NCBI RefSeq assembly: GCF_000621445.1
Contig: NZ_KK211283.1
Location: forward strand, 34,429-78,841
DNA: 44,413 nt
Direction of reading: 5' to 3'
Source of the DNA: Alkalihalobacillus bogoriensis ATCC BAA-922
GTDB lineage: Bacteria; Bacillota; Bacilli; Bacillales; Bacillaceae_F
A model generated the notes under the pieces. It was given only the letters and a program-made list of their open reading frames with translations. It was not told the origin of the DNA and searched no databases. Positions 14,895-44,413 of the stretch are shown here, piece after piece. The position numbers and the translations under genes are program-made. How positions within the stretch are numbered: the stretch's first letter is position 1; each line of letters opens with the position of its first letter.

Positions 14895-15000
14895 CTCTTA
14901 TCTTTCAGAGCCGTTTGCTCTGTTGGAAGTAGCACCATAGCGTTATAGCCGGTTGCCGGGCGTCATCGGTCCAAATCCCTCAGCCTTCTCTTGATAAGAG
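14895..15000 (-). promoter_or_regulatory. SAM-I (S-box) riboswitch upstream of mtnKA
   Basis: On the minus strand the P1 arms CTCTTATC and GATAAGAG enclose the conserved S-box core: AGAAGGCTGAGGGA, GGACCGATGACGCCCGGCAA and GGTGCTACTTCC. Binding of S-adenosylmethionine should favour the downstream terminator and lower mtnKA expression when methionine is plentiful. S-box control of mtnKA is known in B. subtilis. Confidence 0.96.
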
Positions 15001-28687: not shown

Positions 28688-28701
28688 AGGCTCGTAGTGA
28701 T

Positions 28702-28753
28702 AAAGGTTGGCTAATAGAAAGGATGATTATTTTCTTTACAGCCAACCTTTTCA
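28702..28753 (+). terminator. Terminator of the ger operon
   Basis: An 11-bp stem AAAGGTTGGCT / AGCCAACCTTT with a 27-base loop, followed by a short T stretch. Confidence 0.75.
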
Positions 28754-28787
28754 ATTGTATCAATTTTGTAAACATATCAAAATAGAT

Positions 28788-28817
28788 TTGACATTGATAA
28801 TCAATATCAATTACAAT
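28788..28817 (+). promoter_or_regulatory. Sigma A promoter overlapped by a Fur box
   Basis: TTGACA, 18 bases, TACAAT. The spacer between the two elements contains the first Fur box (28795-28809), so a bound repressor would block RNA polymerase. Confidence 0.72.
28795..28809 (+). promoter_or_regulatory. Fur box 1
   Basis: TGATAATCAATATCA differs at one position from the Bacillus 7-1-7 Fur box TGATAATnATTATCA. Position in the promoter spacer suggests iron-dependent repression. Confidence 0.75.
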
Positions 28818-28829
28818 AGGTGTAACAAA

Positions 28830-28844
28830 TGATAACGATTATCA
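28830..28844 (+). promoter_or_regulatory. Fur box 2
   Basis: TGATAACGATTATCA differs at one position from the Fur 7-1-7 consensus. It lies just after the predicted start of transcription, 20 bases before the DUF2325 gene. Confidence 0.75.
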
Positions 28845-28866
28845 ATCGTGGAGGAGTGTTTGCAAA

Positions 28867-29193
28867 GTGTCATCACTTTTAATCGTAGGAGCAGATCACT
28901 TAGGAAAAATCCCAAGTAAGCTTGAGGGGATTGGGTTTCGTGAAGTGTTACATATAAGCGGTAGAAAAGTACAACAAGTAAAGAAAGAAATTCCAACTCA
29001 TGTCGATTTAGTCTTGGTTCTGACAGATTATATTAACCACAACTTATCAACGGTATTAAAAAAACGAGCAAATGAACAAGGTATACCGATTTGCTACGCG
29101 AAACGGTCATGGTGCTCCATTTATCAGGCAATCGGAAAATGTCAGATGGAACAATGCGGTCAAAAAGATTCATGTCGCTATTTTCAAAACTAA
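28867..29193 (+). CDS. DUF2325-family protein, Fur-controlled
   Basis: A 108-residue protein of the DUF2325 type: N-terminal LIVGADHLGKIP, then IGFREVLHISGRKV, then a DLVLVLTDYINH segment giving a Rossmann-like fold. The C-terminus holds five Cys residues (76, 83, 92, 97, 103) that could bind a metal or Fe-S cluster; that is inference. The start is GTG about ten bases after GGAGGAG. Two Fur boxes sit in front, and the unknown Cys-rich gene follows, so the pair probably responds to low iron. The family has no settled function that I know of. Confidence 0.78.
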   Translation: MSSLLIVGADHLGKIPSKLEGIGFREVLHISGRKVQQVKKEIPTHVDLVLVLTDYINHNLSTVLKKRANEQGIPICYAKRSWCSIYQAIGKCQMEQCGQKDSCRYFQN

Positions 29194-29211
29194 TATGAGG
29201 TGTCAAAAACG

Positions 29212-29757
29212 GTGAAACTAGAATGTCTTACATCAGAACATAGTAATTATATTAAATGCCCGTATGGAGCCTATGACATAAATTCAGACTGTTTGTATAA
29301 AGACTGGAGAGGGCCAGCTCAACTTGCGTTAAATGACATCGTCTCATGTTATTTACAGCTTTCTACAACGGAACGAACGTTTACGCAATTATTAACGATT
29401 ATTGAGGAAAAGTGGACGGCTTGGTGTAGACATGCATTTGATTCAGTGGCACAGTATGTTTTAACGTTAGCAAAGATAACTAATTATCTATTAACATATT
29501 TAACAAAAGAGGCAATAGTGGACAATAATCAGTTCGTTGAGGAAGCAACCATTTATTATCCTAATACGAAGTGTGTCACCAAATATTTAGTAGAAACGAA
29601 CTCACAAATGGTACAAGAGTATTGTGATGTTCTTTCGAAAACAATGGGTGGACGGGCACGATTATCATCGATTGAAGTCATTGATGTGACGTCAGGGAAA
29701 ACATATCTTTATCAATGTGAAGCCTATAAACAACTTTATACTGTAGTGAGCATATAA
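29212..29757 (+). CDS. Unknown Cys-containing protein, second gene of the Fur operon
   Basis: A 181-residue soluble, mostly helical protein beginning MKLECLTSEHSNYIKC, with eight Cys residues, two of them in the N-terminal KCPYGAYDINSDC. A short C-terminal beta segment ends the protein. The start at GTG 29212 has GAGGTG nine bases upstream; a GTG at 29200 lies in that site and is less likely. It follows the DUF2325 gene by 18 bases and ends at a strong terminator, so both are iron-regulated together. I do not recognise the family. Confidence 0.7.
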   Translation: MKLECLTSEHSNYIKCPYGAYDINSDCLYKDWRGPAQLALNDIVSCYLQLSTTERTFTQLLTIIEEKWTAWCRHAFDSVAQYVLTLAKITNYLLTYLTKEAIVDNNQFVEEATIYYPNTKCVTKYLVETNSQMVQEYCDVLSKTMGGRARLSSIEVIDVTSGKTYLYQCEAYKQLYTVVSI

Positions 29758-29795
29758 AAAGTCATCATTGCCATTATCGCAATGATGACTTTTAT
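29757..29795. terminator. Bidirectional terminator between the Fur operon and the rhomboid gene
   Basis: A 14-bp perfect stem AAAAGTCATCATTG / CAATGATGACTTTT with a 9-nt loop; T-rich on both strands, serving the two convergent units. Confidence 0.9.
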
Positions 29796-31103: not shown

Positions 31104-31536
31104 GTAATGCGGTAGGAGGGATCAAGGCATTTGATCGTTATCATCATCGCTTTGAGGTATTTTTTTTGAGTTAGGCAGTCTGTTATGCAAGATGACAATC
31201 ACAATGGACTTAAAATGTGCGGGTGTTGAGTACGGCGTTAGTAGTCATATGTGGAAGCCGTTTTTCGTTTTTTGTTTACAGTCATCATTGATTTATCTTC
31301 TAGATAAGACGAAAACCTCTGCCGGCTATCAAAGCTGACCGATCTGTTACACTACGAAATGGGATAGTCAAGCTTGCCGTTCATTTCATACGTGAGCATA
31401 GGAAGTGAAAAGTGTGACATGAACCATTGTTGCTTTGCGATTAAATGGGTTTAACCATAAGAAGCAAGGAACCTCAATGAGAAATACCTCAATGTATGAA
31501 CCGATATGATCCAAATGCAATGCAAAATGATGGTCC

Positions 31537-31574: not shown

Positions 31575-32600
31575 GTGAGAAAAAGGTTATGGACAATAGC
31601 TATCAGTATGGTTCTCACAATGGTATTTTTAGCAGGGTGCGGAGAAAAAACGCAGGAGGACATTCTTGAAGACTTAGATACCACGTTAAGTGAAATGACA
31701 GGGTACAAAGCCAATGCAACGATGACGCTACAAACCGGTACGGAAGCACAAAAGTATGATGTGGAGATTTGGCATCAAAGTGATACGTATTATCGTGTAG
31801 CACTACACAACGAAAATAAAGATCAAAATCAAATTATTCTAAGAAATGATGATGGGGTTTTCGTACTTACACCAGCATTAAACAAAAGCTTCCGCTTCCA
31901 AAGTGATTGGCCAAAAAACAATAGTCAAGTATATTTGTACGAATCATTAGTTTCCGACATTTTACTTGATGGTGACCGTTCGTTTACTGCGAGTGAGGAT
32001 CATTATGTCTTCCAAACAACAACGAACTATCAAAATAAAAACTTGCACAGTCAAGAAATCATGCTCAACAAAAAAGACTTAACACCAGCATCTGTGAAAA
32101 TTATGAATACAGATTTTGAAGTGTTAGTCGAAGTAGAATTCACATCATTTGAAATGAATGCAAGCTTTGGCGAAGGAGACTTTGAAACAGAGCGAAACAT
32201 GACAGGAGCTTCTTTAGAAGAAATTCCAACAATGGCTGAAGGAGAAGAAGCAACTGAACAGCCATTAACCGTTCTATATCCAATGTATGAGCCTGATGGA
32301 ACATCGCTAACAGGTTCTCAAACGGTTCAAACAGAGGAAGGCGAAAAAGTTGTGTTGTCATACACAGGAGAACGTAACTTTACGATTGTCCAACAAAGAA
32401 GTAAATATGTTCCGGCAAGCACACCGATGAATATTAGTGAAGGTGAGCCTGTAGATTTAGGATTTACGGTTGGAATCTTAACGAATGATTCGATTCTTTG
32501 GTCTTATGAAGGTGTCGACTTCATTCTTGCATCAAGTGAGTTAGAATCAGAAGAAATGATTTCGATTGCTCGTTCCGTGTATGGAACATTAGAGAAATAA
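31575..32600 (+). CDS. ydcC: LolA-like lipoprotein YdcC
   Basis: A 341-residue lipoprotein. The signal peptide ends in lipobox LAGC and the soluble part has the LolA/LolB-like half-barrel fold typical of YdcC (N-terminal repeat TGYKANATMTLQT...). It sits between acpS and alr as in B. subtilis, where ydcC is, to my knowledge, linked to sporulation. GTG start. A sigma E-like promoter lies far upstream and a hairpin covers the binding site. Confidence 0.9.
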   Translation: MRKRLWTIAISMVLTMVFLAGCGEKTQEDILEDLDTTLSEMTGYKANATMTLQTGTEAQKYDVEIWHQSDTYYRVALHNENKDQNQIILRNDDGVFVLTPALNKSFRFQSDWPKNNSQVYLYESLVSDILLDGDRSFTASEDHYVFQTTTNYQNKNLHSQEIMLNKKDLTPASVKIMNTDFEVLVEVEFTSFEMNASFGEGDFETERNMTGASLEEIPTMAEGEEATEQPLTVLYPMYEPDGTSLTGSQTVQTEEGEKVVLSYTGERNFTIVQQRSKYVPASTPMNISEGEPVDLGFTVGILTNDSILWSYEGVDFILASSELESEEMISIARSVYGTLEK

Positions 32601-32709: not shown

Positions 32710-32738
32710 TTGACATCTCCTTCTCTACAAATGATAAT
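32710..32738 (+). promoter_or_regulatory. Sigma A promoter for alr
   Basis: TTGACA (32710-32715), 17 bases, GATAAT (32733-32738), about 40 bases before the start codon. A nearby TGATAATCAT resembles half a Fur box, but the second half does not match. Confidence 0.75.
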
Positions 32739-32776
32739 CATGATTAAATCATGAATAAGTAGAGGTGTCCCTCGAA

Positions 32777-42960: not shown

Positions 42961-43035
42961 TCCACAGTAGCTCAGTGGTAGAGCTATCGGCTGTTAACCG
43001 ATCGGTCGTAGGTTCGAGTCCTACCTGTGGAGCCA
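42961..43035 (+). tRNA. tRNA-Asn (GTT)
   Basis: Full cloverleaf with acceptor TCCACAG / CTGTGGA, anticodon loop CTGTTAAC, T loop GGTTCGAGTCC and encoded CCA. Confidence 0.97.
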
Positions 43036-43036
43036 C

Positions 43037-43127
43037 GGAGAAGTACCCAAGTGGCTGAAGGGGCGCCCCTGCTAAGGGTGTAGGTCGCGCGAGCGGCGCG
43101 AGGGTTCAAATCCCTCCTTCTCCGCCA
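43037..43127 (+). tRNA. tRNA-Ser (GCT)
   Basis: Class II tRNA with long variable arm; acceptor GGAGAAG / CTTCTCC, anticodon GCT in CTGCTAA, encoded CCA. Confidence 0.97.
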
Positions 43128-43133
43128 TTTTAT

Positions 43134-43208
43134 GGCCCGTTGGTCAAGCGGTTAAGACACCGCCCTTTCACGGCGGTAACACGGGTTCGAATCCCGTACG
43201 GGTCACCA
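43134..43208 (+). tRNA. tRNA-Glu (TTC)
   Basis: Acceptor GGCCCGT / ACGGGTC, anticodon loop CTTTCAC, encoded CCA. Confidence 0.97.
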
Positions 43209-43248
43209 ACTATTTAATGAAGATTCATAGATTGATTATTAATCTAAC

Positions 43249-43324
43249 GGAGGATTAGCTCAGCTGGGAGAGCACCTGCCTTACAAGCAGGGGGTCGGCG
43301 GTTCGATCCCGTCATCCTCCACCA
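43249..43324 (+). tRNA. tRNA-Val (TAC)
   Basis: Acceptor GGAGGAT / ATCCTCC, anticodon loop CTTACAA, encoded CCA. Confidence 0.97.
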
Positions 43325-43346
43325 TATATAACAAATTTAAAGGAAT

Positions 43347-43422
43347 GGTCCCGTGGTGTAGCGGTTAACATGCCTGCCTGTCACGCAGGAGATCGCCGGT
43401 TCGATCCCGGTCGGGACCGCCA
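43347..43422 (+). tRNA. tRNA-Asp (GTC)
   Basis: Acceptor GGTCCCG / CGGGACC, anticodon loop CTGTCAC, encoded CCA. Confidence 0.97.
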
Positions 43423-43439
43423 TTTTTTTGTCTTTATTT

Positions 43440-43524
43440 GCGGGTGTGGCGGAATTGGCAGACGCGCTAGACTTAGGATCTAGTGTCTTATGACGTGGGG
43501 GTTCGACTCCCTTCACCCGCACCA
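43440..43524 (+). tRNA. tRNA-Leu (TAG)
   Basis: Class II tRNA; acceptor GCGGGTG / CACCCGC, anticodon loop CTTAGGA, long variable arm, encoded CCA. Confidence 0.97.
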
Positions 43525-43576
43525 TTTGATTGTCACAATTATAAACGAAAAACATACGATAATGTGTGTCATAGAT

Positions 43577-43662
<86 letters not shown>

Positions 43663-43707
43663 AACTCTCATAAAATAATATGTATGTTTTTTTCTAAATG
43701 GTATCAT

Positions 43708-43784
43708 GCGCCCTTAGCTCAGCTGGATAGAGTGTTTGACTACGAATCAAAAGGTCGGGAGTTCGAATCTCTCAGGGCGCGCCA
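43708..43784 (+). tRNA. tRNA-Arg (ACG)
   Basis: Acceptor GCGCCCT / AGGGCGC, anticodon loop CTACGAA, encoded CCA. Confidence 0.97.
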
Positions 43785-43791
43785 TTATATT

Positions 43792-43868
43792 CGGGAAGTG
43801 GCTCAGCTTGGTAGAGCACCTGGTTTGGGACCAGGGGGTCGCAGGTTCAAATCCTGTCTTCCCGACCA
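43792..43868 (+). tRNA. tRNA-Pro (TGG)
   Basis: Acceptor CGGGAAG / CTTCCCG, anticodon loop TTTGGGA, encoded CCA. Confidence 0.97.
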
Positions 43869-43877
43869 TTTAAATAA

Positions 43878-43951
43878 GCGGGTGTAGTTTAGTGGTAAAA
43901 CCTCAGCCTTCCAAGCTGATGTCGTGAGTTCGATTCTCATCACCCGCTCCA
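43878..43951 (+). tRNA. tRNA-Gly (TCC)
   Basis: Acceptor GCGGGTG / CACCCGC, anticodon loop CTTCCAA, encoded CCA. Confidence 0.97.
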
Positions 43952-43958
43952 AATTTAT

Positions 43959-44035
<77 letters not shown>

Positions 44036-44046
44036 TAAATTACCTT

Positions 44047-44075
44047 TTGACAATATGAATTAAATTTGTTAAGAT
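44047..44075 (+). promoter_or_regulatory. Internal promoter directly before 16S rRNA
   Basis: TTGACA (44047-44052), 17 bases, TAAGAT (44070-44075), about 120 bases before the 16S gene. It can boost rRNA over the upstream tRNAs. Confidence 0.8.
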
Positions 44076-44104
44076 GGTTAAGCTGTCCTAACAGGGCAAC
44101 AAAA

Positions 44105-44118
44105 TAGCTCTTTGAAAA
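44105..44118 (+). promoter_or_regulatory. boxA-like antitermination element in the rRNA leader
   Basis: TAGCTCTTTGAAAA resembles the boxA element that recruits NusB/S10 in Bacillus rRNA leaders; the following AACTGAAC is also typical of these leaders. Confidence 0.6.
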
Positions 44119-44197
44119 CTGAACAAGAAAAAGCCAAGCGAATTAAAGAGATAGTAATATCTCGTCAATGAATTATTTTTGAGCTATATCAAACACT

Positions 44198-44413
44198 TTT
44201 ATGGAGAGTTTGATCCTGGCTCAGGACGAACGCTGGCGGCGTGCCTAATACATGCAAGTCGAGCGGACTGATGGGAGCTTGCTCCCTGATGTTAGCGGCG
44301 GACGGGTGAGTAACACGTGGGCAACCTGCCCTGTAGACTGGGATAACATCGAGAAATCGGTGCTAATACCGGATAATAGATGGAATTGCATAATTCCATT
44401 TTAAAAGATGGCT
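44198..44413 (+). rRNA. 16S ribosomal RNA, 5' part (cut by window edge)
   Basis: Begins TTTATGGAGAGTTTGATCCT and continues with the universal GACGAACGCTGGCGGCGTGC and the V1 and V2 regions. About the first 216 bases are present. The sequence is of Bacillus type. Confidence 0.98.

Follow-up and report, generated by a model that had tools for sequence, protein, structure and literature searches.

A predicted Fur-controlled gene pair encoding a DUF2325 protein and a degenerate relative of the iron-staple nucleases in Alkalihalobacillus bogoriensis

The 44,413-nucleotide stretch analysed here, from the genome of the alkaliphilic Bacillus relative Alkalihalobacillus bogoriensis ATCC BAA-922 (contig NZ_KK211283.1, positions 34,429 to 78,841; termed the window) harbors a predicted two-gene operon preceded by two putative Fur operators. 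Its first gene specifies a DUF2325 protein, and its second specifies a partner protein (PART) which, on the evidence of its relatives, is a degenerate member of the iron-staple branch of the PD-(D/E)XK nucleases. We tentatively propose, as the best among several readings, that the pair represents a Fur-repressed accessory of flavodoxin-type iron sparing, acting as a docking or redox module; this reading is preferred because of the iron- and Fur-dependent regulation reported for the DUF2325 protein Cj1384c and because of the recurrent linkage of the partner gene to flavodoxin. The elements of the locus, with predicted isoelectric point (pI) and expect value (E) where applicable, are as follows.

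28788..28817, + strand: sigma-A type promoter, TTGACA-18-TACAAT, agreeing with the consensus at 11 of 12 positions (-35 element at 28788-28793, -10 element at 28812-28817)
28795..28809, + strand: Fur box 1, TGATAATCAATATCA, one mismatch to the consensus TGATAATNATTATCA, situated between the -35 and -10 elements
28830..28844, + strand: Fur box 2, TGATAACGATTATCA, one mismatch to the same consensus, following the -10 element after a 12-base gap
28850..28856, + strand: Shine-Dalgarno sequence, GGAGGAG
28867..29193, + strand: DUF2325 protein, 108 amino acids, GTG start, pI 9.2, PF10087 match with E 1.6e-14
29212..29757, + strand: PART, 181 amino acids, degenerate PD-(D/E)XK iron-staple-family protein
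29757..29793, + strand: intrinsic terminator with a 15-pair stem and a 7-base loop, located between PART and a convergent rhomboid gene (PF01694)

An earlier note, made from the sequence of the window alone, had described near-consensus Fur boxes within and just past the promoter and a two-gene operon headed by a DUF2325 gene. Both boxes are recovered by our scan, promoter, DUF2325 gene, partner gene and terminator follow one another in that order, and the PF10087 assignment is borne out by a score of 54.3 bits against a gathering cut-off of 33.6. Boxes 1 and 2 are the only matches in the window with a single mismatch to the consensus, and the 19-base form of the Fur box (up to three mismatches) matches once, at 28790-28808 over box 1, where 0.05 matches would be expected; at up to three mismatches to the 15-base consensus, the 10 matches in the window, taken together, do not exceed chance (6.49 expected). 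Three weaker Fur-like matches, at 31132-31146, 31781-31795 and 32732-32746 (3, 3 and 2 mismatches, respectively), lie among genes identified by eye as acpS-like, lipoprotein-like and alr-like and are likely due to chance. The counterpart of box 2 is perfect in the sister genome (G006, locus L039). Because the promoter scan as a whole performed no better than shuffled sequence (7 found versus 5.6 expected), the promoter call rests on its position and on the conserved operators. By the placement of a box at its promoter, the operon is predicted to belong to the Fur regulon, with Fur presumed to bind both operators.

The Fur boxes are conserved well beyond the window, as was seen in a comparison across 397 genomes of the same order, among which DUF2325 was found in 110, mostly as one match each. 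For this comparison, 100 DUF2325 loci were fetched, 11 matching genomes not being fetched, and 98 yielded a DUF2325 open reading frame (ORF); of 37 PART loci examined away from DUF2325, two lacked a PART ORF, leaving 35; 18 of the 32 PART-bearing genomes in the rest of the class were fetched; and one row was omitted from one alignment (A4). A Fur box with up to two mismatches occurs within 200 bp upstream of the DUF2325 gene in 73 of the 98 loci, across genera, against a background of 0.8 per dinucleotide-shuffled set and of 43 among 530 (8%) other ORFs of the same loci. The figure is 62 of 79 for loci from named genomes, several of which represent the same strains, while paired boxes (up to three mismatches) spaced 20 to 45 bp apart precede 63 of the 98. 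The Fur linkage in other genomes and the co-occurrence of the two genes, which the earlier note had singled out as checks, thus both hold: 62 genomes possess both genes, 48 only DUF2325, 21 only PART and 266 neither (Fisher p 1.3e-24, uncorrected for kinship). PART (E < 1e-3) adjoins DUF2325 in 47 of the 98 loci, and a weaker match occupies the same place in five more. Of the 35 loci in which PART is encoded apart from DUF2325, 28 have a box no more than 1.5 kb away and seven have none. A PART-like protein of possibly different function, devoid of Fur-like boxes and adjacent to what by eye is an MgtE-like gene, was also observed (L294-L300).

PART is also associated with flavodoxin, which replaces the iron-containing ferredoxin under iron shortage. 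In the rest of the class, PART directly follows a flavodoxin gene in 15 of the 18 fetched loci, and all 18 carry a box with up to two mismatches within 700 bp upstream of PART. Within the order, flavodoxin lies directly upstream of PART in 7 of the 35 loci away from DUF2325 and beside the DUF2325-PART pair in eight loci, and a pyridine-nucleotide oxidoreductase gene immediately precedes PART in locus L279. This arrangement of Fur-like boxes and a flavodoxin neighbor resembles the ykuNOP flavodoxin operon of Bacillus, although the ORF of approximately 295 to 330 amino acids located between two flavodoxins in that operon has no PART homology. An identity of PART with YkuO was accordingly considered and rejected, as the PART profile had no match below E 1 to this ORF among the matches listed. 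Near Fur-like boxes in the window genome itself, one flavodoxin gene precedes a YkuO-like ORF (L322) and another lies ahead of the gene for a siderophore-type binding protein (L321); the genes of both loci were named by eye. Inspection by eye, without a family search, also placed the DUF2325 locus between nrdEF-like and cydAB-like genes in L119-L122, L124-L126, L129 and L130; nrdEF (ribonucleotide reductase) and cydAB (cytochrome bd) are linked to iron or oxygen. No flavodoxin-linked, Fur-controlled PDDEXK- or RecB-like protein was found in the literature searched, whose coverage did not extend to most subscription papers, and the available portions of the DUF2325 papers within that coverage contain nothing on Bacillus.

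The earlier note had been unable to place the partner protein, and the window copy indeed scores above the curated cut-off of no Pfam or NCBIfam family, PDDEXK_1 (PF12705) included, and has no match below E 0.014 in PHROGs (PADLOC was not searched). Its ORF was listed as 29200-29757 with an alternative GTG start possible at 29200, the GTG at 29212 being favored because GAGGTG sits nine bases ahead of it. The placement comes instead from its relatives. The full-length PART of locus L167 passes the PDDEXK_1 cut-off (24.4 versus 22 bits), that of L121 falls below it (18.7 bits), and 7 of 25 PART members match this family with an E of 0.1 or lower, the lowest being 9.8e-6. The predicted structural model of the L167 protein, moreover, resembles the Cas4, Dna2 and AddB nucleases and shares the fold of the iron-staple PD-(D/E)XK enzymes (AddB C-terminal domain, Cas4, Dna2, ACE1), and staple-bearing PARTs have in common with the latter an N-terminal CPY cysteine and a C-terminal C-x2-C-x5-C motif, which together make up a four-cysteine iron-sulfur (Fe-S) pattern.

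PART differs from these nucleases in being a stand-alone protein (150 to 275 amino acids in 81 of 85 sequences), in its Fur-box and flavodoxin linkage, and in lacking the catalytic acid. The position two residues before the conserved lysine, which is itself present in 68 of 85 PARTs, is occupied by V, I, L or F in 78, A in 4, Y in 1 and a gap in 2, and thus, in the register presumed here, by an acidic residue in none; nuclease activity has presumably been lost along with this motif. The staple has been eroded as well, with the N-terminal cysteine present in 45 of the 85 and the three C-terminal cysteines in 40, 35 and 35. The window protein retains the CPY cysteine (C16) and lacks the C-terminal C-x2-C-x5-C motif and part of the beta-1 region. 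Because three of the four Fe-S ligands are gone, the PART of the window lineage most likely functions without a metal.

The case made in the earlier note from cysteine content can be evaluated on this basis. The partner does contain eight cysteines; among 25 aligned PARTs, however, only C16 recurs widely (15 sequences, including all 10 staple-bearing rows), followed by C138 (6) and C5 (4), whereas C46, C72, C121 and C169 are restricted to the window and its sister and C27 to the window alone. Similarly, the DUF2325 protein carries five cysteines in its last third, and its tail cysteines are lineage specific: of 98 orthologs, 37 have C92, 42 have C97 and 36 have C103, while the complete tail motif (by a loose pattern) is present in 29. 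With the tail cysteines in a minority of DUF2325 proteins and most PART cysteines found in no sequence other than those of the window and its sister, the cysteine argument fails in both proteins; non-conservation of these residues, which the note had named as a ground for refutation, is largely what is observed. What endures of the suggested iron-linked function is the part supported by the Fur boxes, flavodoxin and Cj1384c; Fe-S handling, a more specific suggestion, fits less well with the window copy than with those relatives that still bear the staple.

As regards DUF2325, the closest described precedent is that of Campylobacter jejuni, in which, according to the accessible parts of the reports, Cj1384c is repressed by Fur and iron (PMC4491227, PMC3815106). 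This parallels the Fur control predicted here. Unlike the window gene, Cj1384 lies beside katA and encodes seven cysteines, as stated in the sections available (PMC9426514).

On the preferred reading of the pair as an iron-sparing accessory, Fur would occupy the two operators and block the promoter when iron is present, and DUF2325 and PART would be produced when it is lacking. PART would descend from an Fe-S-stapled nuclease domain of the RecB/Cas4/AddB type whose catalytic acid has been lost and would now probably serve as a binding or scaffold module, tied genetically to flavodoxin across the class. DUF2325, a small basic protein with a predicted generic Rossmann/CheY-like model (predicted local distance difference test score, 77.7), is often paired with PART in the window's order, and the two may interact physically. 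Together they may serve flavodoxin-based, iron-free electron transfer under starvation, whether by docking, redox partnering or iron-status switching.

An unlikely alternative is that the pair constitutes an RNA regulator, in which the basic DUF2325 and a pseudo-nuclease with a nucleic-acid-type fold would bind RNA and contribute to silencing the mRNAs of iron-rich proteins. The pair would then take over from FsrA/Fbp, which in B. subtilis is an iron-sparing system under Fur in which Fbp has a part. DUF2325 is basic throughout (median pI, 9.5; range, 8.5 to 10.2; 98 loci), PART is nuclease-like in fold, and of 387 genomes, the 10 with an FsrA match above cut-off all belong to one genus (g44) and have no copy of this DUF2325. 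The restriction of FsrA may, however, simply mirror the reach of the Rfam model; 16 of 25 PART members have a pI below 7, that of the window protein being 5.2, and the flavodoxin linkage would be left unexplained.

It is quite unlikely that the pair assists a neighboring metal importer, be it FbpABC-like for Fe(III) or ZnuA-like. All six other genomes of the window's family (L039, L042-L046) do carry FbpABC-like genes directly upstream of DUF2325, with ATP-binding cassette importer components detected by Pfam in L039 and ZnuA in L042. In the window, in contrast, the upstream region (28688-28787) contains gerAC in their place, and they were probably lost there in the window lineage, which is the simplest reading; by eye, homology between window and sister resumes near 28755. 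No close FbpB is encoded in the window genome, where the best match reaches 30% identity, yet the ratios of nonsynonymous to synonymous substitution (dN/dS) against the sister genome, 0.065 for DUF2325 and 0.21 for PART, indicate purifying selection on both genes, and an FbpB-like gene occurs in only 10 of the 100 fetched DUF2325 loci.

Also improbable is the notion that PART is a decaying remnant and that DUF2325 alone matters. Such decay would be in keeping with the rapid divergence and motif loss of PART and with its being undetectable in many DUF2325 genomes, but it sits poorly with the dN/dS of PART and its intact ORF, and in loci that the profile misses or barely detects (L065, L068, L070, L071 and L080), ORFs of 150 to 161 amino acids hold the PART position.

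Distinctly improbable is a role of DUF2325 in oxidative stress or redox buffering through its cysteines, with PART as a passenger. In the portions available of the corresponding report, Cj1384 is described as controlled by PerR and RacRS and as showing the strongest induction of any gene under violet-blue light, and quenching of reactive oxygen species is raised by its authors (PMC9426514). The tail cysteines, however, are missing from over half of the DUF2325 orthologs, and the residues invariant among 58 DUF2325 sequences (among them G8, D10, H29, G32-R33-K34, P43, D54, N57-H58-N59, P74, S81 and W82) include no cysteine.

Highly improbable, finally, is a split iron gauge, in which the DUF2325 tail (C-x3/4-C-x5-C) would replace the C-x2-C-x5-C lost from PART in the window's relatives, so that one Fe-S cluster would be held by one PART and three DUF2325 cysteines and the complex would form or fall apart with iron status: among PARTs scored as retaining the N-terminal cysteine, a staple of their own is missing from 11 of the 15 that have a cysteine-tailed DUF2325, compared with 5 of the 32 whose DUF2325 is tail-less or was not looked up, a pattern weakened by loose motif definitions, likely false N-terminal cysteine calls, three doubled strains and its derivation mostly from one clade.

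Elsewhere in the window, an S-adenosylmethionine riboswitch was located at 14895-15000 (- strand), and at 42961-44413 11 clustered tRNA genes precede a 16S rRNA gene, of which the 5′ end is included at the window edge.

A fast-evolving, unannotated family is thereby placed within the iron-staple nuclease superfamily, its catalytic acid gone. It offers a case in which an Fe-S nuclease fold appears to have been reused, stripped of its cluster ligands in several lineages, and this in genes whose expression is expected under iron scarcity. DUF2325, a family of unknown function, gains a testable partner, and the association of PART with Fur boxes and flavodoxin suggests a Gram-positive component of iron sparing which is, in the literature searched, undescribed.
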